From: a virus
Length of the DNA stretch: 24,784 bases
IMG/VR virus record: IMGVR_UViG_3300029952_000647
Location: 1-24,784 of that record
Reading direction: 5' to 3' (one strand)
Part shown: one piece after another, positions 3,654-23,852 of the stretch
Numbering within the stretch: the first letter of the stretch is position 1
Layout: every line of letters begins with the position of its first letter
Position numbers and translations under genes: made by a program
Notes under the pieces: generated by a model
Databases searched by the model: none
What the model saw: the letters and a program-made list of their open reading frames with translations, nothing else
Told to the model about the DNA's origin: nothing

Positions 3654-3973
3654 AGCCCGGCATCTTCATCGAACACCACAACCATCTCGCCGTTCGGGTC
3701 TTCAACCGCACCATCAGGGTGCGGGAAAACGGCGTTCTGGCCATACTCCTCAAGTGCCGCCGTTATCGTATCCTGCAGTGACATCTTCGGCACCAGGGAG
3801 GCTGTCATCTCGTCCTGATAGCCCCCCAGCATGTACAGGTTGTCCGTGGTGTAGCCGGATGCCTTGAGGAGGGCTTTGATCGGCCACCAGTAGATGCCGA
3901 ACAGCTTGTAGCGCCGGGGTTCGAGCTGCAATTGCTGCACGATGTTGCGGAAGACGTCCTTCATATCGACCAT
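3650..3973 (-). CDS. Small cytoplasmic protein of unknown function, coupled to the DarB-like gene
   Basis: This 107-residue protein starts at an ATG that overlaps the TAA stop of the 2066-residue gene by one base (TAATG). AAGGAAG lies about eight bases upstream, inside the end of that gene, so translation is probably coupled. The N-terminal half is basic and aromatic (RRYKLFGIYWWPIKALLK), and the C-terminal third is acidic (EDPNGEMVVVFDEDAG). There is no signal peptide or membrane span. The acidic tail and tight coupling suggest a partner or chaperone of the giant protein, but that is inference. A second in-frame ATG three codons later is possible. Confidence 0.75.
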   Translation of the reverse strand: MVDMKDVFRNIVQQLQLEPRRYKLFGIYWWPIKALLKASGYTTDNLYMLGGYQDEMTASLVPKMSLQDTITAALEEYGQNAVFPHPDGAVEDPNGEMVVVFDEDAGL

Positions 3974-6900
3974 TACGCAGCTTCCTTCATCGGTGCATCC
4001 GCAAGCAGCGCGGCCCGGTCTTTTGTTGGGCTGATTGCAGCGAGAAACTCCTTAACGCTCGACGCACTACCGTCCCAGCCCCGCTTGCCGTGACTATGGC
4101 CAGAATGGTCGAATATGGCCGTATGCAAGTCGGCATAGGCCGAGTCCGACGGCGCTGCAGCCACAACCAGCGGATCGTTCATCACGCCATCCGCGCGGGC
4201 ACGGGCCGCAAGGGATTGGGCAACATCGGCAGGCCAGCGCGGACCACCACTCATCGAATACCCACCAGCATGAGAGAAATCGAGCGCAGCCGTCGCAGCC
4301 TTCACCGCATCACGGAAGGTTGGAGCCGAGGCGATTTGTTGGTGCACAGCCTGCCGCAAAGCGGCCTCAGCGGGCTTCACAGACTCCTCGCCGAACACAT
4401 CCCGCATCACATGCTCCCAGGGGTTTTTGCCAGTGGTATCCGATCCGTATTCATGGCCCGGATACACCGGCTTTAGGCCAATCGCAGCGCCGGGACGGCC
4501 CTGCCTACCCACGCCAAACTGCATCTTCATCTGCCGAGCAAGACCGTCACGCACGTAACCCGCGATGGCCTTCTCTTTGTGATCCGGCAGAGGGAGGATC
4601 AGCGAGTGATCATGCAGCTTTCCACGCGCCTCATAGCCGCGAACTGCACTCACCTTGCCGTCGCCGTCGATCAAGCCGTAAGCGTGGCGGGTGCCGTCTT
4701 TGTAGTGGTCGATGGCGTGCTTAAGCGTCTTCTGAATGGCGTCGGCCTCGGCTGCAATCGTCTCAGGCGGTAGGTGGCGAATCTCCTCCAACCGCAGTGC
4801 TTCCCCGCTTTTCACCTTTTGGCTAACGGTATGCTCGCGCAACTTTCGGCTTGCCGTGGCCTCCTCATCCAATGCCTTGGACTCCTCCTCCGCCGAGAAC
4901 TCGAACGGTGCGACGCCCTCTTTCATGCGGTCCAAGTCCATCGTGATCGGCTTCGATGTCAACGCTGTGCCGTAGAGGCGGGCCGTGACCGTCGCTGCTA
5001 CAGGATCGACGTTCGTTACCACCCAGCGCGTCGGCTTGTCTGACCAATGGAAAGGACCATCAGAGCCCCCATCCAGCACGAAGCCCTTGTTCCGTATCCA
5101 GGCGTAGCCAGTCGTCGGCTCAATGACGGCATCATACGTCGATTTCAGCAGATCCTTGTGCTGGAATGCAGCGTTATTCCGCAGGGCGCGGGACGCCTTT
5201 TCAGACGCAATTTCCAGCCTGCGAGTTGAAGAATTCTCAATCCCCTGGCCCTTCATGCGCGTCATCGACGTGCGCATTTTCTGCAAACGCATGAACTCTG
5301 CGATAGCTGCCGTCTTGTCATCAGCCAATTTACGAGCCTTGGCCTCAGCGGTGTTTTTATTGTATTTCTCACGCTCCGCCGCAGGGTCGGCAGAGAGCAT
5401 GATCAGCTCATCGATCCGAGAGAAAGCACCCTCTCGCGCAAGGTTTTCGACCCTATCGCCACCATTCCACAGCATGTCCTGCCAGTCTTTTTTCGCGGCA
5501 ATCGTCTGATATCGGTAGCCGTCGAACGACCCCTTGGCGAGGTAGGTATGGATGCGCACGGCCTCATTGGTGTTGCCCTGACGCAGGCCGCGCCCGTCGC
5601 GCTGCTGCATGCTAGCGGGCTCCCACAGCAGGTCCAGGTGGTGAATGTCAGTGGTGCCCATTTGGAGGTTCACCCCCTCCCCCATGGTTGGCGTGTTGCC
5701 GATCACGAATCGAAACTTACCGGAATTGAACTTATCGCTTACAGACTGGCGCGCGGCTGAGCCTGGAGTTGCTTCACCGTTGATGATTCCAATTTGATTG
5801 CGCGGCACGCCAGCCGCCACAAAGGCCGCTGCGATTTTTTCGTGCATATCAACATGGTCACAGAAGATAACCTGACCACCATCAGCAGAACCCGCGACCG
5901 CCGTTTTAACCATCTCTTCAAGTTTCGGAGACCGCTCACCCGCGTATTTCGGGTTATAAAGCGACATGTCTACCGATACTTTACCCATTTGAGCCATTAC
6001 AGAGAACACATGGCTATTTGCCGTATCGTCTTCCTTCTTTCCCTCAGCAAGCGATGTGCGAAGCTCATGATATACTTCATTTTGCGCAGGCGTCATATCA
6101 ATGTAATGCGTCAGACGATCTGCAGACGGCATCACAAGACCCACATCTTCCGCAGTTGTCCGGTCGATATAGCGACGCATCACCTCGCGCAGCTCATCCA
6201 TGTTTTTGAAGCCGGATGTCACCAGCTCATCCACAAGTTCGCCGTTCACGCCCAGGATCGTATCATGCGTGAACTCGCAGAAGCGATCCAAAAACTCCTC
6301 GCTATTCTTGATGCCCATACGCTCAAATGCATCGGGCGCAATGTGCGAGAGCATCGAATAGATTTCGAGCGGGCTGTTCTTCGTAGGAGTCGCGGTCAGC
6401 AAATAGACGCCCTTGTTTCCATTGGCCTCTCGCAGTGACCGGCTTTTAAAATACGTGTCTTGCGCGCAATTCGACAGGCCGGAGCCGCCTAAAAACTTTG
6501 GCTTCATGCCAAATCGGTTCTTTGCGGCATAGAGGTTTTTATAGGCCGTCGCCTCATCAATCAGTAGCATGTCAATGCCCAGATCATTGAAGTAAATCGT
6601 TCCCTCACGATTGGAAAAGTCGCGTTTCGCGGATTCCTGATCATGAGCCGTCCGCATCTTTTTTATAGCTTTTCCGCTCTTTTCGGCGATTTTATCACCG
6701 CGCTTGGTCCAAAACTCAGAATCGATATACCCCTCCTTGGTGACTGGATCGACATCGATAAAGTTCCATGCTGGCTGACTGATGAAAACGAAATCGTAGT
6801 CGTTTTGCTGCATCTCATGCAGCTTGCGCTGCCGGGTTGCTGCGTCATCTGATTTCGACGTGACGTTTCCGGCCTTGTCAGTCGAATAGGTCTCGCCGAT

Positions 6901-9900
6901 CACCAATACCTTTGAGCCCGGAAACCAGAACTCCGCTGAATTGATCCAATTTGCGAGAACGGATTTGGGCACAACAAAGGTGGGCTTCTTGGCCTCGCCG
7001 GTTGCCTTGGCGAGCTTCGCCAGCATGAGGCCGCGCCCGGTCTTGCCGAGACCCACATCAGCCGCAATGATGCCTTTCCCTGCAGTAAGCGCCCAGCGGA
7101 TGCCTGCATAATGGTAGCTGTTCACCTTCAATGCCGGGTTGAGGCCAGGAATCTCAATCGGCGCGTCGCTGTAGGCCGGGGCGCGGAATCCTCGGTGGGT
7201 CCGGTTGTATCTGTCTTCCACAGACTGGCGCACATCCGAGCCGCGCACCCAAACAGCGAACTCCTCATTCAATTTGGCGAGGTCTTCCCGGCTATCCTTC
7301 CTCACGCCTGTCCGGTTGAGGTATTTATCAATCAGCTTTCCATCACCCCAATTATCACCCGTGACGACGTAGACACCATCGTCATATTCGACATTAAATG
7401 GCGTGGGGCTCCATGACGCACCCGGATTGTCGGCTTTATACTGCGCGACTCTCGCCAATCCCCACGCGTTGATTACGTCAGTTGTAATGAACCCGCTGTT
7501 GATATTTATTTCGACATCTTCCAGGGACTTGGGTCCGATTGCCTCTTCCAAGATCGCGGCCTGAGCCTGCAGCTTCGCTTGATATTCAGGCGGAAGCTCT
7601 GGAAGCGAAGCGGCGATATTTGCCGCGTCGAACTTTTCCCACAGATCGCCGGAAACGTAAGTGTCGAGCGTAGACCATGTGACGCCATCACCATTCACGG
7701 CATATGCCGGAGAGGCGAATAGATGCTCAAGAACTGCCTCGCGATCCTGGCCGGTAGCGTCGGCAATCTGCTCGACCGTGAACCCGCTGCTGGCGAGGGA
7801 TAGCTTCGTGGCGATGGTGTCGAAGTCCAGCAGGCCGACAGCCCTCGCCTCCCCCGTTACCAAATCGGAGTAGCTGCCGTCATCTCGAACAGCACCCAGC
7901 AGGCGGGCTGCGCGGCGGTGCGCTGCATTGACGTTTTCAGCGTGAGTCTCATCCGAAACGCCGCCGATGTTCGGCAGGGATGGAGCATTGAGCCATTGGC
8001 GGAAGTGCTTATTCCGGGCCGGGGCACCGTGCGCGCGGACAAAATCATCCAACGCTTCAATGAGGTTGGTGCGGGCGAATGTCGGGTCTTTGACGCGGCC
8101 CGCAACGAGATCGTCAATCAGGTCAGCAACCGCGCGTGCGTCGGTGACGGCAGGATGCTCTGCCGTAGCGGCTTTGTGCCAGCGCGGCGGCTCACCCTGA
8201 AGGACATAGGCAATGCCATCGATCACGCGAACGTCGCCCAGCTTGTCTTCCTGGTAGGGGGATTTCAAGGCGGCGCTGATGGCGCGCTGCTGTGCAGCTT
8301 CGTCATCGCCCAGCGCGGCCAAGATCGTGGGTACATCCGGGCTCACGATAGGCTGAGCAATCGGGGCCTCGGCGATAGCCGCAGGGACGCCCACCATACT
8401 TCCAGAAACGGTGATGTCGTCACCCATGCCAGCCTTTGCGCGCCAGCCCGGCTCCAATGTGCCAAACACATTAGACGCGCCGCGCCCGCCCGTGACGTAG
8501 CCGCCGCCGACCATCTCGCCATCCCAGATGCCCAACTTTTCCAGCGTCGCCCGGTCAACCGTTGACAGCGCCCCGGCGACATCTTGCGGTCGCTTACGGA
8601 ACAGCACGATGTCGGATGTGACTCCGGTGTGGGATGCCTCGAAGGCCGTATTCGGCAATCGATACGCGCCGAGGAATTCCCCCTTGCGCAACGCCCGCTC
8701 ACGGAACGCTCGCCCGCTCGATGAATCCATGATGCCCGTTGGCACGATCAGCGCCACAAGGCCGCCATCGACGGTCTTGTCCAAGGCGGTATCAACGAAA
8801 TACTGCTCCGCCTTCGACAGGTCGCGCTTGTCGTCGCGGATCATCTCACCGCGCAGGCCGAACGGAACATTTCCGATAACGGCGGCGAACTTCCTGCCGT
8901 CCTGCGTCGCGAACCGCTCCAGGCTCGCATTGCGCACCTCGTGCCCGGCAGGCGTGTGGAGGATGCTGGCAATACGGGCGGAAATCGGCTCCAATTCAAC
9001 GGCTGTCACGCGGGCGTTCGATGGCGCGGTGTGCAAGAAGACACCAGCCCCGCTTGACGGCTCCAACACGTCACCACCAACAAACCCGGCCCGACCGATA
9101 AGGGTCCACATAGCCGACGCAACGGCAGGGTCAGTGTAGAATTCGTTGAGCGAGTCGCCGCAGCCGCCATTGCCGGAATACTGCGCGAGGACAGCCTTGT
9201 CCGCATGCGTCATCTCCGCATCGGTCTTGCCCGCCAGGATGGCCACAGCCTCCGCATTCAGCGCGCGGCGTTCCTCTTTGCTGATACCGGCAGGCACCCC
9301 CCAGGCAATTTGGGGCTCGGCTGCCACGGGTGCCGGGGCGGGTGGCACTTTGCTACTGCCATCGACGTAGGCCTGACCCACGGGGCTGAGCGAAAGATCA
9401 GGCACGCCCAGCGTGGCGAGGACGGCAGCGCCATCGACGCCGCGCGTGCTGGCCATACGGATGAAATTGGCAATGTAGCGGTTGGCATCGGCGATCTTCG
9501 CCGCGAACTCCTTCATCGTCTCAGATTCATAGCGGCCCTGCCCGCCGCGTGCCTTATCCGACGCAATCCCAAGATCGAGGCATTTGCGCGCCTCTTTCAG
9601 CACTGAGACATAGCTCTGCAGCTTCATCATCACAGCCTTTGGCGGCACCTTACCTTCCTGCACATGAGACGGGTCCGCAGCCGCATTCACTGCAGCCTTC
9701 ACCGGATTTGGATTCTTGACATCTGGCGCTTCACGATCCCGCATGAACCAACCGTCAACGCCCTTTGGCTTGAACGCGTAGGCATCCAGCGCCTTGGCTT
9801 GGTCCTCGGTGAGGTCGGGACGGAGAACGCCGGTCAGGCGCTTGCCCTTGGTGGTCGTGTAGGTGAACCGCTTGTATTCTGGTGCGGGGGCAATTACCTC

Positions 9901-10173
9901 CTCTGGAGCTGGAGCTGGAGCTGGAGCCAGGGCCGGGGCGGGAGCGGGAGCGTGTGCTGAGGCGTGATGGAATGAGAGTAGGTCGCTGTCGGCGTGCTCG
10001 ACGTGGTGCGCGAACAGATCGACAGGAGGCGCTGCAGCGCGCTTGCGCCGGATCGCCGTCGTCGGCGCGACATAGGTTCCGTCCTTCGTCGTGTAGCCAG
10101 CCACACGGACCGGCATGTCGAACAGGTTCCCGAGCGCGCCGCCTGGGATGATCGCCTTATAGAAGAACAGCAT
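3973..10173 (-). CDS. Giant DarB-like polyvalent protein: adenine methyltransferase plus SNF2 helicase
   Basis: This 2066-residue protein starts at ATG 10173. Residues 1 to 45 are the LFFYKAIIPGGA module shared with two other proteins here. A Pro/Ala-rich linker follows (about 70 to 95). A Rossmann methyltransferase has motif I EPSSGAG (about 371 to 377) and a variant catalytic motif NVPF (435 to 438), where most N6-adenine enzymes have NPPF or NPPY. A full SNF2-type helicase follows: Walker A GLGKT (K1044), DEAT (1206 to 1209), TATPT (about 1260) and the arginine-finger motif QRDGRGLRQGN (1524 to 1534). The last 500 residues are unrecognised. This order matches P1 DarB, an antirestriction protein carried in the virion, and related polyvalent proteins. 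It probably protects or processes incoming DNA. The domain calls are firm; virion location is inferred. Confidence 0.93.
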   Translation of the reverse strand: MLFFYKAIIPGGALGNLFDMPVRVAGYTTKDGTYVAPTTAIRRKRAAAPPVDLFAHHVEHADSDLLSFHHASAHAPAPAPALAPAPAPAPEEVIAPAPEYKRFTYTTTKGKRLTGVLRPDLTEDQAKALDAYAFKPKGVDGWFMRDREAPDVKNPNPVKAAVNAAADPSHVQEGKVPPKAVMMKLQSYVSVLKEARKCLDLGIASDKARGGQGRYESETMKEFAAKIADANRYIANFIRMASTRGVDGAAVLATLGVPDLSLSPVGQAYVDGSSKVPPAPAPVAAEPQIAWGVPAGISKEERRALNAEAVAILAGKTDAEMTHADKAVLAQYSGNGGCGDSLNEFYTDPAVASAMWTLIGRAGFVGGDVLEPSSGAGVFLHTAPSNARVTAVELEPISARIASILHTPAGHEVRNASLERFATQDGRKFAAVIGNVPFGLRGEMIRDDKRDLSKAEQYFVDTALDKTVDGGLVALIVPTGIMDSSSGRAFRERALRKGEFLGAYRLPNTAFEASHTGVTSDIVLFRKRPQDVAGALSTVDRATLEKLGIWDGEMVGGGYVTGGRGASNVFGTLEPGWRAKAGMGDDITVSGSMVGVPAAIAEAPIAQPIVSPDVPTILAALGDDEAAQQRAISAALKSPYQEDKLGDVRVIDGIAYVLQGEPPRWHKAATAEHPAVTDARAVADLIDDLVAGRVKDPTFARTNLIEALDDFVRAHGAPARNKHFRQWLNAPSLPNIGGVSDETHAENVNAAHRRAARLLGAVRDDGSYSDLVTGEARAVGLLDFDTIATKLSLASSGFTVEQIADATGQDREAVLEHLFASPAYAVNGDGVTWSTLDTYVSGDLWEKFDAANIAASLPELPPEYQAKLQAQAAILEEAIGPKSLEDVEININSGFITTDVINAWGLARVAQYKADNPGASWSPTPFNVEYDDGVYVVTGDNWGDGKLIDKYLNRTGVRKDSREDLAKLNEEFAVWVRGSDVRQSVEDRYNRTHRGFRAPAYSDAPIEIPGLNPALKVNSYHYAGIRWALTAGKGIIAADVGLGKTGRGLMLAKLAKATGEAKKPTFVVPKSVLANWINSAEFWFPGSKVLVIGETYSTDKAGNVTSKSDDAATRQRKLHEMQQNDYDFVFISQPAWNFIDVDPVTKEGYIDSEFWTKRGDKIAEKSGKAIKKMRTAHDQESAKRDFSNREGTIYFNDLGIDMLLIDEATAYKNLYAAKNRFGMKPKFLGGSGLSNCAQDTYFKSRSLREANGNKGVYLLTATPTKNSPLEIYSMLSHIAPDAFERMGIKNSEEFLDRFCEFTHDTILGVNGELVDELVTSGFKNMDELREVMRRYIDRTTAEDVGLVMPSADRLTHYIDMTPAQNEVYHELRTSLAEGKKEDDTANSHVFSVMAQMGKVSVDMSLYNPKYAGERSPKLEEMVKTAVAGSADGGQVIFCDHVDMHEKIAAAFVAAGVPRNQIGIINGEATPGSAARQSVSDKFNSGKFRFVIGNTPTMGEGVNLQMGTTDIHHLDLLWEPASMQQRDGRGLRQGNTNEAVRIHTYLAKGSFDGYRYQTIAAKKDWQDMLWNGGDRVENLAREGAFSRIDELIMLSADPAAEREKYNKNTAEAKARKLADDKTAAIAEFMRLQKMRTSMTRMKGQGIENSSTRRLEIASEKASRALRNNAAFQHKDLLKSTYDAVIEPTTGYAWIRNKGFVLDGGSDGPFHWSDKPTRWVVTNVDPVAATVTARLYGTALTSKPITMDLDRMKEGVAPFEFSAEEESKALDEEATASRKLREHTVSQKVKSGEALRLEEIRHLPPETIAAEADAIQKTLKHAIDHYKDGTRHAYGLIDGDGKVSAVRGYEARGKLHDHSLILPLPDHKEKAIAGYVRDGLARQMKMQFGVGRQGRPGAAIGLKPVYPGHEYGSDTTGKNPWEHVMRDVFGEESVKPAEAALRQAVHQQIASAPTFRDAVKAATAALDFSHAGGYSMSGGPRWPADVAQSLAARARADGVMNDPLVVAAAPSDSAYADLHTAIFDHSGHSHGKRGWDGSASSVKEFLAAISPTKDRAALLADAPMKEAA
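9903..9951. repeat. Hexanucleotide repeat encoding a Pro-Ala linker
   Basis: Four perfect tandem copies of CTGGAG (9903 to 9926) run into degenerate GCC/GGG-rich copies. They encode the Pro-Ala linker between the N-terminal module and the enzyme domains of the DarB-like protein. Because the unit is six bases, copy-number change would alter linker length without shifting the frame. Confidence 0.8.
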
Positions 10174-15409: not shown

Positions 15410-16621
15410 TTGAACTGGTTTCCGTGCTGCTGCTGCGACATTTGCCTTTGCCGCAGCCTCCGCCCTCGCCTTGGCGATGGTGGCCTCCATGAAGCTGACG
15501 AACTCCAGATTCACCCCAGGTTTCACATCCGGCAGCGCCAACCAGCTACCGCGACAATGCGGGTGCTGAACACCAGCAGCGGGCCACCAGCGCTGATTGA
15601 TTCCGCGCTCCATCAGCATGCCGCCGACGCGCTGGCGCGGTGAGGCGGATCGACCAATGTTCGTCTTGCCCAGCCAGACTTCCGTCTCGCCGTGCTTTTC
15701 GCTCGCAGCCGGATCAATGACGGTGAAGGTCTTGCCGTTGATCGACCTGCAGAATTCGCACGCACCGCGATACGCCTCACGCCGCTGCACCTTCGATCCA
15801 AACCCCTGCGCGGCGATGAATCCCTGATTGCAACACTCCCCGGCCTCGGTGACTGCGATGCGCCGGAAGTCGCGGTTGAGCTGCCCAAACTCATCGAATA
15901 ACCGCGTAGCGAGCGCCTTGTATTGGCCCTCCTTCTGGCCAAGAATTTGTGCCTGAACATGTTCGATGATGATGGTCTTCATCTTCGTGCGGGTGGATTC
16001 CTTGACGGAACTGATCGCAATCGCAGCCCGTGTTTTAGCGACGTAGAGCACGTCAAGCTCGACCGGCGAGAGCACGCGCGGTGGAATTGCAGCAAATGTC
16101 GTCGGCACCAAAGCGGACCAGCCTGCCATCGGGTCGGAGTGCGGTTTATTCTCGGTGCTGGCCGCTTGGATTTTCCCCAGGATCGACGCGCGCACCGTGA
16201 GGTATTCGGCCTCGGAATTAATCACATCATCCGGCAGGTATCGCTGAATCAGATAGTCGGCAACCAGCATCCAATCATCCAGCGAGTAGGCCGCTGGGCT
16301 CTTGCCCTCCAACCGAGCACGCACGTCCGCAAGCTGCGTTGCATCCCAGCGCAGCCATGGCGCGGACGCCTTGGCCAATTCGCCGATAGGCTCGCCCAGC
16401 AGCAACTTACCCATGATATCCTGAATGCGCTGCAGAATAGCCTGAAACCGCTCCGTCACATCCTCCACATGATCAGCCAGCCATGGGTTGTCATGGCGCG
16501 CCCAAATCGACGTCGGATCGCCAACAGGGTCTTCCGAGAGTGCCTTGAACAGGTCTTCGAGGCAATTATTGCACTGGTCTTCGGGGACCGCGCCGATATC
16601 GATCAGAATCGATTCCATCAT
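15401..16621 (-). CDS. MuF-type minor head protein (head morphogenesis)
   Basis: The start chosen is ATG 16621, giving an ATGA overlap with the upstream stop and 406 residues; an ATG further upstream lies deep inside the neighbouring frame. The N-terminal two thirds are helical. The C-terminal domain has the SPP1 gp7/Mu gpF pattern: a helical VTEAGECCNQGF (about 255 to 265), ACEFCRSINGKTFTV (about 284 to 297), then GVQHPHCRGSWL (about 350 to 360). The paired Cys and His/Cys residues may bind metal. MuF proteins sit at the portal vertex and take part in head assembly; some are injected. The tail is an Ala-rich helix with KPVQRS at the end. Family assignment is good. Confidence 0.88.
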   Translation of the reverse strand: MMESILIDIGAVPEDQCNNCLEDLFKALSEDPVGDPTSIWARHDNPWLADHVEDVTERFQAILQRIQDIMGKLLLGEPIGELAKASAPWLRWDATQLADVRARLEGKSPAAYSLDDWMLVADYLIQRYLPDDVINSEAEYLTVRASILGKIQAASTENKPHSDPMAGWSALVPTTFAAIPPRVLSPVELDVLYVAKTRAAIAISSVKESTRTKMKTIIIEHVQAQILGQKEGQYKALATRLFDEFGQLNRDFRRIAVTEAGECCNQGFIAAQGFGSKVQRREAYRGACEFCRSINGKTFTVIDPAASEKHGETEVWLGKTNIGRSASPRQRVGGMLMERGINQRWWPAAGVQHPHCRGSWLALPDVKPGVNLEFVSFMEATIAKARAEAAAKANVAAAARKPVQRS

Positions 16622-19302
16622 GCCCCTGGTGCCCAATCCCGGCCAAGCGGCGTTTTCAGGGGCTCTGCGCTGCCGGATGTGCCCCATGAATAATGCTCTG
16701 AGAACGGGTCGCTTTTTGCGGCATGGTCGCGGACATCTCCAACGCGAGACAATGCAGCCTCATGAGAGCCGTAAGGCCCGGCCACAATGTGCCTGCGCGG
16801 GCCGTTGATGGCCGACACGTAGAAGTGCTTGGCGGCGCTTCCAGCAGCGGGTGGTGTGCCGTCAACGTGTGGCGACGCCGCCGCCCCGCGCTCCTCCGCC
16901 GTCCGCAGCGTGATGGCGTGGCCATCATCGCTGACATTCACGCCAAACGCGCGCTCCATATGATCCAAGACATCACGCGTGGGCGCTTCTGGTGCCTTTT
17001 TTAGGCGCGTGGAAGTGTAGGCTGGCACCAGCTTTCCGTCGCGCACATGAGCATGGACTGTGACGGGTTGCGTAAACAGATCACCCGACGCACCGCCTGG
17101 GATGATCGACTTGAGGAACAGCAAAACACGACCACCCAAGCTCTTGAGCATGCCGCTATGGCCTGGATCGCGAGTCTTTCTCACCTTCGCCTTGAAGTCT
17201 TCCATCGGCATCGATGTGACTTTTCCGATGAATCCAGGATTATCGTAATGCGCGAGATAACCGTCACGCGCCTGTTGCTCATCAGAAAAGCCGAGCATCG
17301 CCTTTTGCTCATCCGGCTCGGTAAAGTGCGGTGGCTTCATCGTATCGACCACGTAGGCGTGTGTCGCATCGTCGTGCGGCCCGACATAGCAGTCGTAATG
17401 ATCGCCATCAGAGCCAAGGGTTTCCTTGATGTATCCGTAATCGTGCTTCATCGTGGTGGACCAGCGATGCCCGCCCTTGGATACACCAGAGCGCACCGAG
17501 CCAGCCGGGTTTTCAACAGTGATCGGGAGCCCCTGGAAAGACCGATGCCCCTTGGCATAATTCCCAGCATCAAGTTGCGCCTGCGTCGGTGCCGACTTGA
17601 GGAAAATGACAGGCCCCAGCGCCTTGCGCATGCCGCCACCAAGCGGGTCTGGAACCTCGTCGCTGTAGAGGTAGGCCGCAGTCCGGTCGCCCTTGTAGGG
17701 CTTCCAGGTTCCGCCATGGAGCACGTCAGTTACGCCGCCCGGCTTGCCTTTGGGGCGGCGGAAGTTTGCCCCCTCGCGATTGCGGAATTCCCATTCGACA
17801 GCATCGCCGACGAGCGACTTGGACATCTGTGAGCCCTCGTCTGGTGCCCCCTTGTCGCTGGACGCCTTAGCCCAGGCATCGCCGTAAATCTGCTTGGACT
17901 GCTCGAACGCGGCCTGCCAGGACGCGCCATCCTCATCCGACCACTGCTCGCGCGGCTTCGCGTCAATTGTGCGCATGGCCTCATAGGGCTTATGCCCAGC
18001 GCCTTTCGCTTCGAGCATGGCTTTTAGGTGCACCTGTACCTCGCCAATGGTTCCATTCTTGAATTTCACCGACAACATGAGATCGCGGTAGCCTTCCGGT
18101 AGAGGCTTGTTGAAGCGGTCTTTCGGCTGTTGCGCGAGTTCCATGCCCCCCTTCTGCAGGGCCGATAGCACGTCTTTGATATCACCCATGCTATCAACGG
18201 CGATGGAGCACCGAACGACATCCTTGAGTTGCGACCAATCGCCGCCGTAATCGGCCTCCACCTTCTCCGCCGCGCGCTTTTCGCCCTTCAAGGGGGCGAT
18301 GAACAACATTCCGCCCGGCTTGGACCACTGAATGTCGTCCATCCCCTTGCCCATCGTCTCATAGCCCAACTTGGAGCAAATCCCCTTTCCGCGATTCAGC
18401 CAACCCTGCAGCTCATCAAGAGCTTCGGCGGACTTGGTGAACAGCTCCTCCTGAGTATGGAACGGCTGAGACGCCTTGGACGGCAGGTGCGCCAGCTCAT
18501 CAGCCGAAAACAGAGGGGCTGTTGCCGCCGCAGTGGCGGGCTGATTTTCGGCAGGCGGAGCTGCAGCCGGTGCCGAGCCCGATGCAGACCGGCCAATCAG
18601 ATGTTCGTGCCGCACCTGATGCTCACGCTCGCCATCGTTCACGGTCACGCCGTCAGCACCGGAGGCCACAATCTTGCCGGTTCCCTGCACGTCGCCGTGC
18701 CGGAAATCAACGGTGTCGCCGTGCTTCATACTCGCCGGAGCCGGAGCGTCCTCTGCCCCCGGCTTTTTTTCGCCCGGCTGATCCTTGTTCGTGCGCACCC
18801 AATGCTTAGCATGACGCCCCGTGCGGTCGGTGCTCTCTTTCAGAGCGAGGCCGGGCCGGTTGGCAATCCCGCCAACGGCCTTCATGAACAGGATAGGCTG
18901 CGGCTTGGGCATGGCGTGTTCCTCGCGTATCACCGCAGCCTTAGCCAGGCGATGCATTCCGTCGATAATCGGGTCATCGTTGGTGGGGTTGGTGGTGGGC
19001 TTGGGTTCGTCCGTATCAGCGACGGCCCCAGCCCCGGCCACATACCGGCTATTCCCATCGTCATCGCGCATGATCGCGCCATCAACGCCAGAATCCACCA
19101 CATCATAGGACTGCAGCATCCGCGACTTATGGCCCAGGAAGGTGTCCCACCCGAGTTGGTGGCGACGCCCCTGGCCGCACTCGCCGGTAAAGCCGTCCTT
19201 GCCGGATGACAAAACTTTTAGCGCCACTGCGCCGAGGTGAGGGTGCTGCGCGTAGACGTGATCGCCACGCTCAACGCCGGGCCGCGCTTTGGCCTTGGCC
19301 AT
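16618..19302 (-). CDS. Multidomain head-associated protein: SH3-like, RelA/SpoT-like and pyrophosphatase-like domains
   Basis: The start chosen is ATG 19302, one base after the portal stop (TGACATG) with GGGGG upstream; an in-frame TTG at 19314 is less likely. It has 894 residues. Two SH3-like segments (about 10 to 85 and 190 to 240: HGDTVDFRHGDV, GKIVASGADGVTV) flank an ILFMKAVGGI stretch. A RelA/SpoT-like nucleotidyltransferase follows: KDVVRCSIAVDS (about 361), KDRF with PLPEGYRDLM (404 to 409) and EVQVH (421), matching the KDYI, GYRSLH and EVQ motifs. Residues 590 to 705 have NPAGSVRSG and DGDHYDCYVG, as in the predicted phage inorganic-pyrophosphatase family. From about 727 the LLFLKSIIPGG module appears. 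It may modify host nucleotides after injection; that is inferred. Confidence 0.88.
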   Translation of the reverse strand: MAKAKARPGVERGDHVYAQHPHLGAVALKVLSSGKDGFTGECGQGRRHQLGWDTFLGHKSRMLQSYDVVDSGVDGAIMRDDDGNSRYVAGAGAVADTDEPKPTTNPTNDDPIIDGMHRLAKAAVIREEHAMPKPQPILFMKAVGGIANRPGLALKESTDRTGRHAKHWVRTNKDQPGEKKPGAEDAPAPASMKHGDTVDFRHGDVQGTGKIVASGADGVTVNDGEREHQVRHEHLIGRSASGSAPAAAPPAENQPATAAATAPLFSADELAHLPSKASQPFHTQEELFTKSAEALDELQGWLNRGKGICSKLGYETMGKGMDDIQWSKPGGMLFIAPLKGEKRAAEKVEADYGGDWSQLKDVVRCSIAVDSMGDIKDVLSALQKGGMELAQQPKDRFNKPLPEGYRDLMLSVKFKNGTIGEVQVHLKAMLEAKGAGHKPYEAMRTIDAKPREQWSDEDGASWQAAFEQSKQIYGDAWAKASSDKGAPDEGSQMSKSLVGDAVEWEFRNREGANFRRPKGKPGGVTDVLHGGTWKPYKGDRTAAYLYSDEVPDPLGGGMRKALGPVIFLKSAPTQAQLDAGNYAKGHRSFQGLPITVENPAGSVRSGVSKGGHRWSTTMKHDYGYIKETLGSDGDHYDCYVGPHDDATHAYVVDTMKPPHFTEPDEQKAMLGFSDEQQARDGYLAHYDNPGFIGKVTSMPMEDFKAKVRKTRDPGHSGMLKSLGGRVLLFLKSIIPGGASGDLFTQPVTVHAHVRDGKLVPAYTSTRLKKAPEAPTRDVLDHMERAFGVNVSDDGHAITLRTAEERGAAASPHVDGTPPAAGSAAKHFYVSAINGPRRHIVAGPYGSHEAALSRVGDVRDHAAKSDPFSEHYSWGTSGSAEPLKTPLGRDWAPGA
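16985..17124 (-). repeat. Internal third copy of the LFFLKAIIPGG module
   Basis: The coding sequence for LLFLKSIIPGGASGDLF and the following V.HAHVRDGKLVPAYTSTR matches the starts of the genes at 10173 and 12269. Here the module is inside a frame rather than at a start. Bases just upstream (GAGCTTGGGTGGTCGTGTT on the minus strand) still resemble the untranslated leader GAGCTGTGGTCGC, now translated. Confidence 0.65.
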
Positions 19303-19303
19303 G

Positions 19304-21031
19304 TCAGCCCCCAACCGTGAAGATCGTCAACGCCTTACCGAAGTCGCCCGCGCCGCCTTGGATATCATCGCCACCCGATTGCCCGCCGCTACCGGCAGCA
19401 CCAGCGCCGCCCTGGCCCGCATCCGGATCACCATAGTCGGGCTTCGGATCACCGGGACCGCCACCAAAGGCGCTACCCTGCTCTGGCTGCTCCGGCTCGG
19501 GTGCTGGCGCATTGAGCTGCATCGCCGGGCCGACAAGAACGGGATTGAGAGGGAGGCCGCCAATCTTCGGGTCAGGATGAGGCTTGTAGCCCTTCTCAGC
19601 CCTCATCTCATCGACCGTCAGAACGAGCTTCTTCGCCTCCCAATCTTTATCGTCATCAGCCTCATCAACCCCAACCCACCGGAAGCACAACTTATCGGTG
19701 AATTCGGAAACGATGAAGTCGGAGATAGTCGATTCCAAGAATGTGAGGTTTGGGCGAAGTCCAACATCCTTAGATGCCGTCAATTTTTCGGCTGTGTCAT
19801 TGCCAGACATACTGGATGACTGCGCGGCGAACGACTCGAAATTAATTTCGTCTGGTGACATGCCGTAAATTGCGCAGACGATGCTCGTCAAGAACGTCAT
19901 CCACTTTGCGAAGTGCATCTCATTAAATTCTGTGCCGAACGCCTCAAACGCAACCTTCGACGCCGGATCGGTTGCGACCATTACCGGGAGCGCCCACGCG
20001 TTATTGACGCCCTTCACCTGAGCATTCCAGTATCGACGGAACGCCGCGAGGTCTTCCTTGCCATAGTCGCCGGAGAGCTGCAGGAGCCCCTTCGGAATGG
20101 CGTTGTTATCGAATCCCGCGATATTATAAGTCATCGCGTTCAGAAATCCGGTGACGACGCGCACCAGCAGTTCAGCCTCGCCCATGCCGTAACCGGCCAG
20201 ACGGACATCCGTGCGTGGGTTGCGCACCTCGTAAATGAGCTGGTCGCGCGTGTAAGCGGTGGCGATCCGACCCTGCAGGGTTTGCAGGGCGTAGATTTCA
20301 TCGTCGCCATCATACCCCTCTTCGGTGCAGAGGCGGATGGTGGCACCATCGACGGCGTAGAACCCGTCGATTCCAAGCGTGCGATCACGCTTCATCTCGG
20401 TTTCGATGGGACACGCATCCATCGTCAGGCTGTCGCGGACGATCTTGGAGACGAAGCTGCGAAAATTGTCCCGCCGCATGGCCTTCCGCTTGCGCGGATT
20501 GAACTCCCAGCCGCAGTTGAGAACGAACCGGGAAAGGAGCTTCGCAGACTCCTCCTCGTCCGACGTCATGATGTGTTTGCGATCAACGCTCCGGATTTCA
20601 AAGCCCGGCCCGCCGTCCTCGCTGATTTGACAATATCGGCTGATTTGGCGGATGCGCGTCATGATGACGGCGTTTAGGATTGGCGTCTGCTCGACCATCT
20701 GCCGGAGCGCATCAAATCCGAGCGGCCCAGGCTTCTCGTATGTATCGCCACTCACCAGGATTTGGAGGTTATCGACATAGACGGATCGCATGCCGCGTTC
20801 GAGCGTGGGCCGCTGATGCCCACCAAATGGCACCGTCATAATTTGCTGCGCTTTCCGCATATCAGCGTCGGCGAAGTCGGACTGAATCATGTCAATCACG
20901 GGCTGGATGGCCGATGACGGAATCAATTCAGATGCCAGCGGACGGTATCCGCGTTGGAGTTCTGCGTTGGCGTCAAAGCGCTCATCGGCAGGGGCGCGGG
21001 GGTCAGAAGCGACTGAGCGTGCAGTGTCCAT
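19304..21031 (-). CDS. Portal protein
   Basis: This 575-residue protein starts at ATG 21031 and ends one base before the next gene. It follows the large terminase in transcription order, the usual place for a portal. Recognisable portal features are the middle part with AIPKGLLQLSGDYG (about 310) and FRRYWNAQVKGV, then MVATDPASKVAFEAFG and FLTSIVCAIYGMSPDEINF, and the C-terminal AEKGYKPHPDPKIGGLPLNP. The last 70 residues are a disordered Pro/Gly/Asp-rich tail ending in ALTIFTVGG. Portals form the dodecameric ring at one head vertex through which DNA enters and leaves. No strong ribosome site is seen before the ATG; motif copy d lies 8 bases upstream. Confidence 0.92.
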   Translation of the reverse strand: MDTARSVASDPRAPADERFDANAELQRGYRPLASELIPSSAIQPVIDMIQSDFADADMRKAQQIMTVPFGGHQRPTLERGMRSVYVDNLQILVSGDTYEKPGPLGFDALRQMVEQTPILNAVIMTRIRQISRYCQISEDGGPGFEIRSVDRKHIMTSDEEESAKLLSRFVLNCGWEFNPRKRKAMRRDNFRSFVSKIVRDSLTMDACPIETEMKRDRTLGIDGFYAVDGATIRLCTEEGYDGDDEIYALQTLQGRIATAYTRDQLIYEVRNPRTDVRLAGYGMGEAELLVRVVTGFLNAMTYNIAGFDNNAIPKGLLQLSGDYGKEDLAAFRRYWNAQVKGVNNAWALPVMVATDPASKVAFEAFGTEFNEMHFAKWMTFLTSIVCAIYGMSPDEINFESFAAQSSSMSGNDTAEKLTASKDVGLRPNLTFLESTISDFIVSEFTDKLCFRWVGVDEADDDKDWEAKKLVLTVDEMRAEKGYKPHPDPKIGGLPLNPVLVGPAMQLNAPAPEPEQPEQGSAFGGGPGDPKPDYGDPDAGQGGAGAAGSGGQSGGDDIQGGAGDFGKALTIFTVGG

Positions 21032-21039
21032 GCCGCGAA

Positions 21040-21055
21040 CATGCCGTCACGACCG
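21040..21055 (-). repeat. Recurrent intergenic motif, copy d (GGTCGTGACGGCATG)
   Basis: Sixteen bases identical to copy c, ending 8 bases upstream of the portal ATG. It lies in non-coding sequence between the tRNA-like element and the portal. Confidence 0.5.
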
Positions 21056-21067
21056 CCCAAGGCGGTC
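21051..21067 (-). promoter_or_regulatory. Perfect hairpin overlapping motif copy d
   Basis: The minus strand reads GACCGCCTTGGGCGGTC: a 7-bp stem with a TTG loop, whose 3' arm is the beginning of motif d. No U-run follows, so it is unlikely to be an intrinsic terminator. It may be an operator palindrome or an RNA structure between the tRNA-like element and the portal. Confidence 0.5.
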
Positions 21068-21089: not shown

Positions 21090-21162
21090 TGGGTGCGGGG
21101 CCGGGAGTTGAACCCAGAAACAGACGGGGGATGAACCCGACTTGGCGACCTGCCTCCCCGCC
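21090..21162 (-). tRNA. tRNA-like element with CAT anticodon and initiator hallmarks, short D-arm
   Basis: The minus strand folds into most of a cloverleaf. The T-arm is CTGGG/CCCGG with loop TTCAACT, matching the TTCRANY consensus. The acceptor stem is GGCGGGG against CCCCGCA, leaving a G-A mismatch at the first pair, followed by C and an encoded CCA. The anticodon arm is TCGGG/CCCGT with loop TTCATCC, so the anticodon is CAT. A mismatched first pair and three stacked G-C pairs under the anticodon loop are hallmarks of initiator tRNA. Against a functional tRNA, the D-arm is only about 15 bases, with at best a 3-bp stem, and position 37 is C instead of a purine. It may be a divergent phage tRNA, a decayed one or a tRNA mimic. 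Confidence 0.45.
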
Positions 21163-21171
21163 CTCTCACCC

Positions 21172-21184
21172 TGCCATCACGACC
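21172..21184 (-). repeat. Recurrent intergenic motif, copy e (GGTCGTGATGGCA)
   Basis: A close match to copies c and d with C to T at one position. It lies in the gap after the large terminase, 9 bases upstream of the tRNA-like element's 5' end, in the position the other copies hold relative to start codons. Confidence 0.4.
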
Positions 21185-21202: not shown

Positions 21203-23197
21203 CTATGCAGATGGGTCCGACGATATGTAGATCGAACACGCGGCGTCCCGCGCAGCCACGCTGAACATGCGCTCGCTGCACTTCCCTTCGGCGAAGGCGT
21301 AGCAGCTCCCACAGGTGCCGTGGGGAGCGTCTGTCATCATGCCCACGACCTCAGCCGGGAGGCCGGGCATGCTTTCGATGGCCTTCTGAGTTGAGCCCAT
21401 CTGCGCAGGTGTCGGCATGATGAATGATCCTGTTCCGTGAGCCCGGCACCACGCGGCAAATCCCATCATCAGGGAGAAGCTAAAGTGCGGATCGATGCCG
21501 ATTTTGACGACGCGGCGGCGCAGCTTGTGCTCCTCCTCATCCTGCTCCGTCACCAGAGCTGTACGGGTGAAGTGCTCGAACAGCACTTTTGAGAGAAGCG
21601 TGACCGTCTGGCGCTGCCCCTTGACGACGATTTCCTGAGAGAGCCCGTTCGGGTCTGGCATCAGCAGGTTGGCCGACGTGATGCGGGCGAATGCCCAGCT
21701 CATCATTTTATATTGGTCAAGCGAAACGGTGTAGCGGTCCCGGTGCACGGCATCAGTTTTGCGGTCAGCCTTCGAAAGCGTGGCATCCCCCCACTGCAGC
21801 ATATCGTCGTCGATCACCTTATAGCTGGCGACCAGGAACACACGTCCAGCATGCCGACTCGCGAACTGCTTTGCAGAGTCGTAATTTGGAAGCTGCTCAC
21901 ATACGCAAACCGCAACGCGATAATCGCGCATTATTTCGTCAAGCCTTGCCCACGGATTTAGAGCGTGGATTTGCTCGGCATGAATTAGGATTGGCCGACC
22001 ATCCGGCGCGCGTTCCAGCACGACGGCACAGGCAAATCCGCCCATGTTGTCGATGCCCATAAACGCCTGCCCGGAGGATTTCTTCCACGTCACCCCGGCT
22101 GCTTTTCCCGCCGCGACGCAGGCGTTGAGGTGTTCAAGCGTCACCGGCACCTGCGATGGATCGGTGAACGGCTTTCCGAGCTTTCGATTATAGAAATTCT
22201 TCATGTCGGAAGCGTTGTGATACGACTCGATCATCTCGCGGGCGCTGATGGTGGGCGACAGGAACTGCGGGTAATGGACGCTCTCAATGCGCGCCGAGGG
22301 CACTTTGGCGATCCACTTACCTTGCTGCGGGTCTTCAATCCACGCCTTGCAGGCCGTGCACTGGTATCGCCAGTCATCCATGTCATCGTCGTAGGCAATG
22401 CAATCAGGAAAATGCTCATCCAGCACCGACGATTGGCCGCAGGCAGCGCAGGCTGTGTGGAATTGGTGCTGCGTGCCTTTTTTGAACCAAAAATTGATAT
22501 CTGCATCCGGCCAATTGGCCGTGCTTCCCATGAGGGTGAACTTCACCTTTGAGGCGGACAGGCGCTCTCTCGTCTTCTCCATGCTCTCGATGGTCATTTC
22601 CTGCACCTCATCAAAGGACAGGATGTCCATCGGCATTGATTCCGTCGTGGCCTTGCCGCTCGTCCACAGGAAGTAGAGGTTGGAATCGCCTATCTGCCGG
22701 GCCATGACGTTGCCCTCGCCGGTCTTGCGCCGACCTGTGCTGGCGTCCTCAACCATCAGTTTTTTGTAGGCATCCGGAACCGTGCGCAAGATCGGCATGA
22801 AGCGCACCGTGCTCTTGAGCTGCGCGAGCTTCATGTCGGGCAGATACATGCCGATTTTGCAGGGCTCGAATTTTAAGGCCCAGAATATGGTTGCCAGCAT
22901 CTCCATGACGGTGAATCCCACCTGCGCGCATTTCTGCATCACGACGGTGCGGCCCTTCGCCTCTTCGACGGTGCTGGGTATCAGGTCGTAGATGTGCCAC
23001 ATGGAAGGACGGTTTTGGAGCGTGAACGGGATACCGTCCACCCGCAGGCCGCGCCGCCCCAGGTCTTCGCACCACTCACGGAATGTCACATGAGCGGCAA
23101 TCGATCCCACATGATCGAACCCGCATTCAATGGCGAAATCACGGAGCTGCCGCCGCCCTATGGTGGCGAGCTGCGCGGACAGGATATCGACGCCCAC
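21203..23197 (-). CDS. terL: Large terminase subunit, GpA-like
   Basis: The packaging motor ATPase and nuclease, of the lambda GpA-like type. The start chosen is GTG 23197, directly after the small-terminase stop (TGACGTG) with GGGACGG upstream; an in-frame TTG at 23218 is the alternative. It has about 664 residues. The ATPase part has QKCAQVGFTVMEM (about 90), the GpA-style Walker A that lacks GKT, and Walker B LSFDEVQEM (about 190 to 200), then LMGSTANWPD. A zinc ribbon (CAACGQ ... CTAC) lies at about 250 to 295. The nuclease part follows with FMGIDNMGGF and later acidic residues. The C-terminus has a Cys cluster, CGSCYAF.EGKC ... DAAC, also seen in the small protein at 24462. It cuts and pumps DNA into the prohead through the portal. 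Confidence 0.95.
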   Translation of the reverse strand: MGVDILSAQLATIGRRQLRDFAIECGFDHVGSIAAHVTFREWCEDLGRRGLRVDGIPFTLQNRPSMWHIYDLIPSTVEEAKGRTVVMQKCAQVGFTVMEMLATIFWALKFEPCKIGMYLPDMKLAQLKSTVRFMPILRTVPDAYKKLMVEDASTGRRKTGEGNVMARQIGDSNLYFLWTSGKATTESMPMDILSFDEVQEMTIESMEKTRERLSASKVKFTLMGSTANWPDADINFWFKKGTQHQFHTACAACGQSSVLDEHFPDCIAYDDDMDDWRYQCTACKAWIEDPQQGKWIAKVPSARIESVHYPQFLSPTISAREMIESYHNASDMKNFYNRKLGKPFTDPSQVPVTLEHLNACVAAGKAAGVTWKKSSGQAFMGIDNMGGFACAVVLERAPDGRPILIHAEQIHALNPWARLDEIMRDYRVAVCVCEQLPNYDSAKQFASRHAGRVFLVASYKVIDDDMLQWGDATLSKADRKTDAVHRDRYTVSLDQYKMMSWAFARITSANLLMPDPNGLSQEIVVKGQRQTVTLLSKVLFEHFTRTALVTEQDEEEHKLRRRVVKIGIDPHFSFSLMMGFAAWCRAHGTGSFIMPTPAQMGSTQKAIESMPGLPAEVVGMMTDAPHGTCGSCYAFAEGKCSERMFSVAARDAACSIYISSDPSA

Positions 23198-23198
23198 G

Positions 23199-23852
23199 TC
23201 AGCCGTCCCAACGGTCAAAGCAGGCGTTCAGCCGGGCAACAACGCGCTGCCCGAGCTGCGGCGACTCCTCGCGCAAGCAATCCACAACCTCTTGCATGAA
23301 CCGCTCAACTTTGGCCGAATTGTTGATTGACTCGCTGATCTTCGCCGCCGTCTCCATAAGCCTGCGCAAGTGGTCGATGGCCTGCAGAAGCAGGCGCGGA
23401 TTTCGGACGCCGCCCGCGTCATTATGAGCTGATTTCAGAACCTTCGAGCAGGCAGTCACCAGCTCCTTGAGCTGATCCATGACGGCCAAATGGCTGTGAC
23501 CTCCCCGAATTCCCATCTCGACGGCGATCATGTCCTGCACGGTCGGAAGACTGGCGACCAGCACGTCAATGGATTCATCCGGCGCAAGCTCCCCGACCGC
23601 CTCAAACAATGGAGAGCTGGCAGGAGGCCGGATGATGGCCATCCTGGCATCGCCCAAATCACGCATGTCCTTGATGATCCGGTAGACAAGCGACCGACTG
23701 CACCCGCGCTCCACGAACCGCTTGGCGATGGCTGGCTGGTCAATGCCGTCGGGACCGTGCTTGGCAATTTCGCTGAGGACGTATTCCTCCACCTCAGTGC
23801 GGATCGAAATAGCGGTCTTGGCCTGCACGACAACAGGCTTTTTCTTGGCCAT
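23199..23852 (-). CDS. terS: Probable small terminase subunit
   Basis: This 217-residue protein starts at ATG 23852, directly after the TAA of the metallopeptidase gene (TAAATG), with a GGGTGGGG stretch upstream. It begins with a basic MAKKK. A winged or simple helix-turn-helix covers about residues 33 to 70 (QPAIAKRFVERGCSRSLVYRI). The C-terminal half is helical (MDQLKELVTACSKVL, then a long amphipathic stretch), suited to oligomerisation. Small terminases bind the packaging start site and load the large subunit. The family is too divergent to confirm by motif. The call rests on the DNA-binding start, the size and the position immediately before the large terminase. Confidence 0.75.
   Translation of the reverse strand: MAKKKPVVVQAKTAISIRTEVEEYVLSEIAKHGPDGIDQPAIAKRFVERGCSRSLVYRIIKDMRDLGDARMAIIRPPASSPLFEAVGELAPDESIDVLVASLPTVQDMIAVEMGIRGGHSHLAVMDQLKELVTACSKVLKSAHNDAGGVRNPRLLLQAIDHLRRLMETAAKISESINNSAKVERFMQEVVDCLREESPQLGQRVVARLNACFDRWDG

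Follow-up and report, generated by a model that had tools for sequence, protein, structure and literature searches.

An initiator-type tRNA-like element with a reduced D arm between the terminase and portal genes of a phage

Locus and architecture of the element

The window analyzed here is a stretch of viral DNA of 24,784 nt (IMG/VR record IMGVR_UViG_3300029952_000647, positions 1 to 24,784). The 171-nt gap between its genes for the terminase large subunit and the portal protein holds an initiator-type tRNA-like element of 73 nt with a cloverleaf architecture and a CAU anticodon (Table 1). Both flanking genes, which the earlier note had named from the letters alone, were confirmed by profile matches, and they lie on the same strand as the element. 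A hairpin between the element and the portal gene is possibly a transcript end, although it lacks a T run. Downstream of the portal gene, the window encodes an 898-aa protein (16618-19314, minus strand) in which an inorganic-pyrophosphatase-type domain and a weak match to RelA/SpoT were detected, and it also contains a very long ORF of 2066 aa (3973-10173, minus strand).

Table 1. Features of the terminase-portal interval in the window
Feature	Position	Strand	Sequence or support
Terminase large subunit	21203..23218	-	phrog_675 (1.8e-80), GpA ATPase
Promoter-like motif before the element	21168..21183	-	GTCGTGATGGCAGGGT; PWM 13.7 bits, sixth best site of the window; tRNA nt 1 at motif position 22
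Initiator-type tRNA-like gene	21090..21162	-	CM R2, CM R1, ARAGORN -ps95; minimum-energy fold is a cloverleaf
Acceptor 5' strand	21156..21162	-	GGCGGGG; G1 does not pair with A72
Reduced D arm	21144..21154	-	GGC-AGGTC-GCC; 3 bp, 5-nt loop retaining GG
Anticodon arm	21122..21142	-	AGTCGGG-TTCATCC-CCCGTCT; three G-C pairs under the loop; C37 C38
Anticodon	21131..21133	-	CAT
T arm	21101..21117	-	CTGGG-TTCAACT-CCCGG
Acceptor 3' strand	21094..21100	-	CCCCGCA
Encoded CCA	21090..21092	-	Discriminator C73 at 21093
Hairpin between element and portal	21051..21067	-	GACCGCC-TTG-GGCGGTC
Promoter-like motif before the portal gene	21038..21053	-	GTCGTGACGGCATGTT; PWM 19.1 bits; ATG at motif position 23
Portal protein	19304..21031	-	PF04860 (5.5e-14) and portal PHROGs

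Read on the minus strand from 21162 to 21090, the acceptor 5' strand is followed by an A, the D arm, a second A, the anticodon arm, GTTT, the T arm, the acceptor 3' strand, a C, and the encoded CCA. The initiator hallmarks described in the earlier note are all present on this strand. The anticodon loop (UUCAUCC) has seven nucleotides with U33 and CAU, the 1:72 position lacks a Watson-Crick pair (G1×A72), and the anticodon stem carries GGG:CCC at positions 29-31:39-41. These features are shared with bacterial tRNA-fMet, as are the initiator-type acceptor (pairs 2-7:66-71 together with A72), the TTC of the T loop, and the CCA. The short D arm and odd position 37 noted earlier were also found. 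The canonical D arm is replaced by one of 3 bp with a 5-nt loop that keeps GG, and C37 is accompanied by C38, whereas the bacterial initiator-type tRNAs compared have A37 A38. Further differences from bacterial tRNA-fMet are C73, G1, and a U27-U43 mismatch. The reduced D arm, C37/C38, and the U27-U43 mismatch are all unusual and argue against a working initiator tRNA.

An exact 20-nt T-arm/acceptor stretch of the element occurs in 15 bacterial contigs, most of the occurrences being initiator-type tRNA-Met genes, mainly of Patescibacteria. A Patescibacteria host was considered on the basis of this shared stretch but was not adopted, since the cultured relatives of the phage infect Proteobacteria and the stretch differs little from the generic acceptor sequence of initiator tRNAs. 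With regard to a prophage attachment site, this stretch is the only part that matches bacterial genomes, and no recognized integrase was found among the nine window proteins scanned. Judged by its sequence, the element is an initiator-class tRNA-derived gene.

Covariance models, gene finders, and folding

The covariance-model search proposed in the earlier note returned a significant score. Model R2, built from 24 tRNAs that came from relatives and from bacteria and were chosen independently of the window sequence, scored the element at 26.2 bits (E = 1.8e-6), and the runner-up place in the window reached 11.4 bits. Model R1, built from 27 tRNAs, gave 36.3 bits, a score that is partly biased because some of its members were retrieved via the window's own T-arm sequence. 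The relaxed ARAGORN search, also proposed earlier, gave a divided answer: a 5% relaxation (-ps95) called the element as tRNA-Met, the sole call in the window, but the default thresholds reported no tRNA for it, and a 20% relaxation produced dozens of chance calls. The generic Rfam tRNA model (RF00005) did not report the element up to an E value of 10 or at its 29-bit threshold, a result in which search filters may matter; the model likely misses the element because of the reduced D arm. Rfam scans of the window and of the gap yielded just weak, chance-level matches.

BLAST searches of the gap against phages, and of the element against phages and Escherichia coli, revealed no homologue except for a 25-nt piece. 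The anticodon-arm DNA pattern had three matches among viral contigs, all outside a tRNA context.

The predicted fold of the element is a cloverleaf that accounts for 63% of the ensemble, and its folding energy is ordinary (z = -0.87). Since a three-hairpin, cloverleaf-like fold was also formed by 382 of 2000 shuffled sequences (19%), the cloverleaf fold alone is weak evidence, and minimum-energy folding was dropped from the argument because shuffles fare nearly as well. The shuffles would be in keeping with a chance cloverleaf in a G+C-rich gap. That explanation is largely refuted by the covariance-model scores, above all the E value from the less biased R2; moreover, the initiator hallmarks are jointly present, and the place and spacing of the element match those of true tRNAs in two relatives (L055 and L269, see below). 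We regard a chance origin as barely credible.

Initiator-type tRNAs and tRNA-like elements in related phages

Searches with the terminase and the portal retrieved 54 and 39 viral loci, respectively. The cultured relatives, of approximately 86 to 95 kb, are Bordetella phage PHB04, Aeromonas phage ST4, Pseudomonas phages Dolphis, Jeremy, and Touem01, Enterobacter phage phiT5282EW, Yersinia phage fHe-Yen8-01, and Morganella phage Mecenats66, and several of them carry tRNAs inside the terminase-portal interval. At the spot of the window element, most relatives have no tRNA, and an initiator-type tRNA is carried by a minority of the relatives searched. The strict set of initiator features (unpaired 1×72, G29-31:C39-41, and CAU) was found in PHB04 (45118-45193), with C×A at 1×72; in G033 and G010, with G×A as in the window; in G034/G068, with A×A; and in G038, with U×U. 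A CAU tRNA in L085 has the C×A mismatch without GGG:CCC. The 1×72 mismatch thus persists while its letters vary, as expected if the absence of the pair is selected. These tRNAs of the same phage family differ from the window element in having full D arms, and several are encoded on the other strand or far from the terminase-portal interval, so not all of them share a conserved position.

Two further relatives, L055 (3713-3789) and L269 (complement 1062-1133), encode an initiator-like tRNA-Met that follows a promoter-like motif and lies upstream of the portal gene on the same strand. Counted along the motif, tRNA nucleotide 1 falls at position 22 in the window, 22 in L269, and 23 in L055. A search of all of IMG/VR for the strict motif-plus-tRNA-Met pattern returned one contig, L269, and L055 is off by one motif base. 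The L269 tRNA has an Rfam match. In contrast to the window element, both of these tRNAs have a paired 1-72 (U-A) and a full D arm. The earlier reading of the element as an initiator tRNA holds in part, in that the element is of the initiator class and tRNA derived, with full initiator-type tRNAs in relatives; for its exact reduced-D-arm form, no orthologue was found.

The main rival to an initiator tRNA gene is a recent pseudogene, that is, a normal initiator tRNA gene of a phage tRNA island whose D arm has been partly lost and which is now decaying without function. The altered D arm and anticodon loop would fit such decay, a single copy of the element is known, and the relatives commonly carry tRNA-like elements that are truncated or altered (L091, L039, L026, and W05:46098-46152). 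However, the CCA, the initiator mismatch, the promoter spacing, and 15 of the 16 stem pairs outside the D arm are intact. When six good reference tRNAs were each mutated at random to the same divergence, 9.2 to 10.8 pairs were expected to be kept, and the probability of keeping at least 15 was 0.0006 to 0.007 (about 0.001 to 0.007 as weighed against decay). The kept pairs argue for structural constraint, although this test would not detect decay that set in very recently. A pseudogene is accordingly a possibility to be taken seriously, but we do not consider it probable.

Other noncoding elements were observed in the relatives. Tandem tRNA-like elements with the portal gene downstream occur in L039 (5107-5308) and L052. 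Within the former, positions 5215-5282 match the YrlA Y RNA-like family (RF02553) with 45.6 bits, under the cutoff of 69, and consist of a T arm and a D arm linked by an acceptor-like stem closed by UACG. No Ro/TROVE gene, the potential partner of Y RNA-like elements, was found in 40 relatives. The window element has with YrlA and other tRNA mimics the use of tRNA-like modules outside the standard tRNA pool in common, but it is not permuted and has no match to RF02553. In L091, a tRNA-like element (401-460; RF00005, 41.1 bits) has perfect acceptor, D, and T arms without an anticodon arm and is followed by a promoter motif and an int-alpA RNA match at 489-560. Long insertions replace the anticodon arm of tRNA-like elements in L118 (c5187-5286, Jeremy) and L111 (3888-4010, phiT5282EW), both in the terminase-portal interval. 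A conserved noncoding stretch of about 190 nt (82% mean column identity) with a strong 3' hairpin, which is not tRNA-like, lies at the terminase-portal junction of L065 (2499-2691), L066 (815-1001), and L078 (3771-3960), flanked by two copies of the promoter motif.

Promoter-like motif and possible role in translation initiation

The motif GTCGTGAYGnCAnnAT precedes the portal gene in most relatives and often overlaps the terminase stop codon. An ATG is found at motif position 23 or 24 in 53 of 151 non-redundant sites, compared with 2.2 per offset elsewhere. If CAnnAT serves as a -10 element, transcription would start on the ATG and yield a leaderless mRNA. Sites in the window include 21053, 15407, 10216, and 3323 (minus strand). 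The score of the copy before the element is not rare by itself, as approximately 0.3 to 0.5 such sites occur per shuffled window, and this weakly scoring copy therefore counts mainly by its place and spacing. A search for a T7-like RNA polymerase as the reader of the motif gave no match, and the control was likewise without a match anywhere.

Most likely, to judge from the motif, the element is transcribed on its own. The earlier note had also suggested that the element serves as a signal for processing the late transcript. In such a reading, an RNase P or tRNA-maturation site would cut a late transcript that spans terminase and portal. The element would suit that role, being a cloverleaf with an acceptor, a T arm, and CCA that is flanked on the same strand by two late genes. 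However, the element and the portal gene are each immediately preceded by a promoter-like motif and could be transcribed separately without any cut, and most relatives have no tRNA-like element there, which makes a processing signal very unlikely. A predicted start at tRNA nucleotide 1 has a counterpart in Nanoarchaeum equitans, where the promoter sets the transcription start of leaderless tRNAs at or beside nucleotide 1 (PMC10100707); all tRNAs of that organism are leaderless and RNase P is absent, whereas the phage case is predicted from the motif only.

We propose that the element is a divergent phage initiator-class tRNA(Met) gene with a minimized D arm and its own transcription unit that would favor leaderless phage mRNAs, a reading to which we assign a probability of about 0.5. 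It draws on the structure, the initiator hallmarks, the recurrence in the family, and the motif with its spacing; from these we infer transcription, charging, formylation, an effect on translation, and nuclease resistance. The element would be transcribed from its own copy of a late-type phage promoter that lies before the promoter of the portal gene, and the RNA would probably start at tRNA nucleotide 1 or no more than 1 nt from it. With its unpaired 1×72 and CAU, the RNA would be charged and formylated, and the three G-C pairs would keep it in the P site of the ribosome. More initiator tRNA would then be available at the time when it is required by the leaderless late mRNAs, whose promoters are of the same kind. 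Additional fMet-tRNA strongly increases leaderless translation and just slightly increases canonical translation (PMC9031893), and thus a phage with leaderless late mRNAs would gain from an initiator tRNA of its own.

The altered positions 37 and 38 could in addition protect the RNA against host nucleases whose cleavage site in initiator tRNA lies between 38 and 39. Enteric VapC cleaves tRNA-fMet between A38 and C39 (PMC4105405), the bond at which C38 of the element falls, and changes of the anticodon loop at nuclease sites are a tendency of phage tRNAs (PMC10264068). The change of A38 to C recurs in L055, G034/G068, and G037, as well as in L093, which showed neither a related terminase nor a related portal in the stretch examined and was not recognized as a relative. 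The RNA ligase RtcB is encoded by 4 of 40 relatives, namely, PHB04 (41078-42187), G033, G010, and G006. All four also carry a CAU initiator-like tRNA, versus 12 of 40 (P = 0.005, a value that ignores relatedness). Taken from the sequences, the loop changes and the RtcB association would point to the supply and protection of initiator tRNA. The same observations would be compatible with a decoy or nuclease-resistant anti-defense RNA that absorbs or survives VapC-type enzymes rather than supporting initiation as such. However, no VapC or other nuclease of the host is known, and the end groups joined by RtcB differ from those left by PIN-domain nucleases. A decoy therefore appears decidedly improbable.

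Beyond an initiator tRNA gene that favors leaderless mRNAs, a coupled start system may be envisaged, in which one promoter type would give rise both to leaderless late mRNAs and to a 5'-leaderless, nuclease-tolerant initiator tRNA that tilts host ribosomes toward them; this wider proposal is speculative and, on present indications, unlikely. Phage tRNAs are common and their role is disputed. According to one survey, phages generally avoid an initiator tRNA gene when a host nuclease (VapC-LT2) targets its product (PMC10264068). In the phage family studied here, initiator-type tRNAs are retained repeatedly, and the late promoters of the family predict mRNAs without a leader, which would offer a testable link between the tRNA content of phages and their mode of translation initiation.
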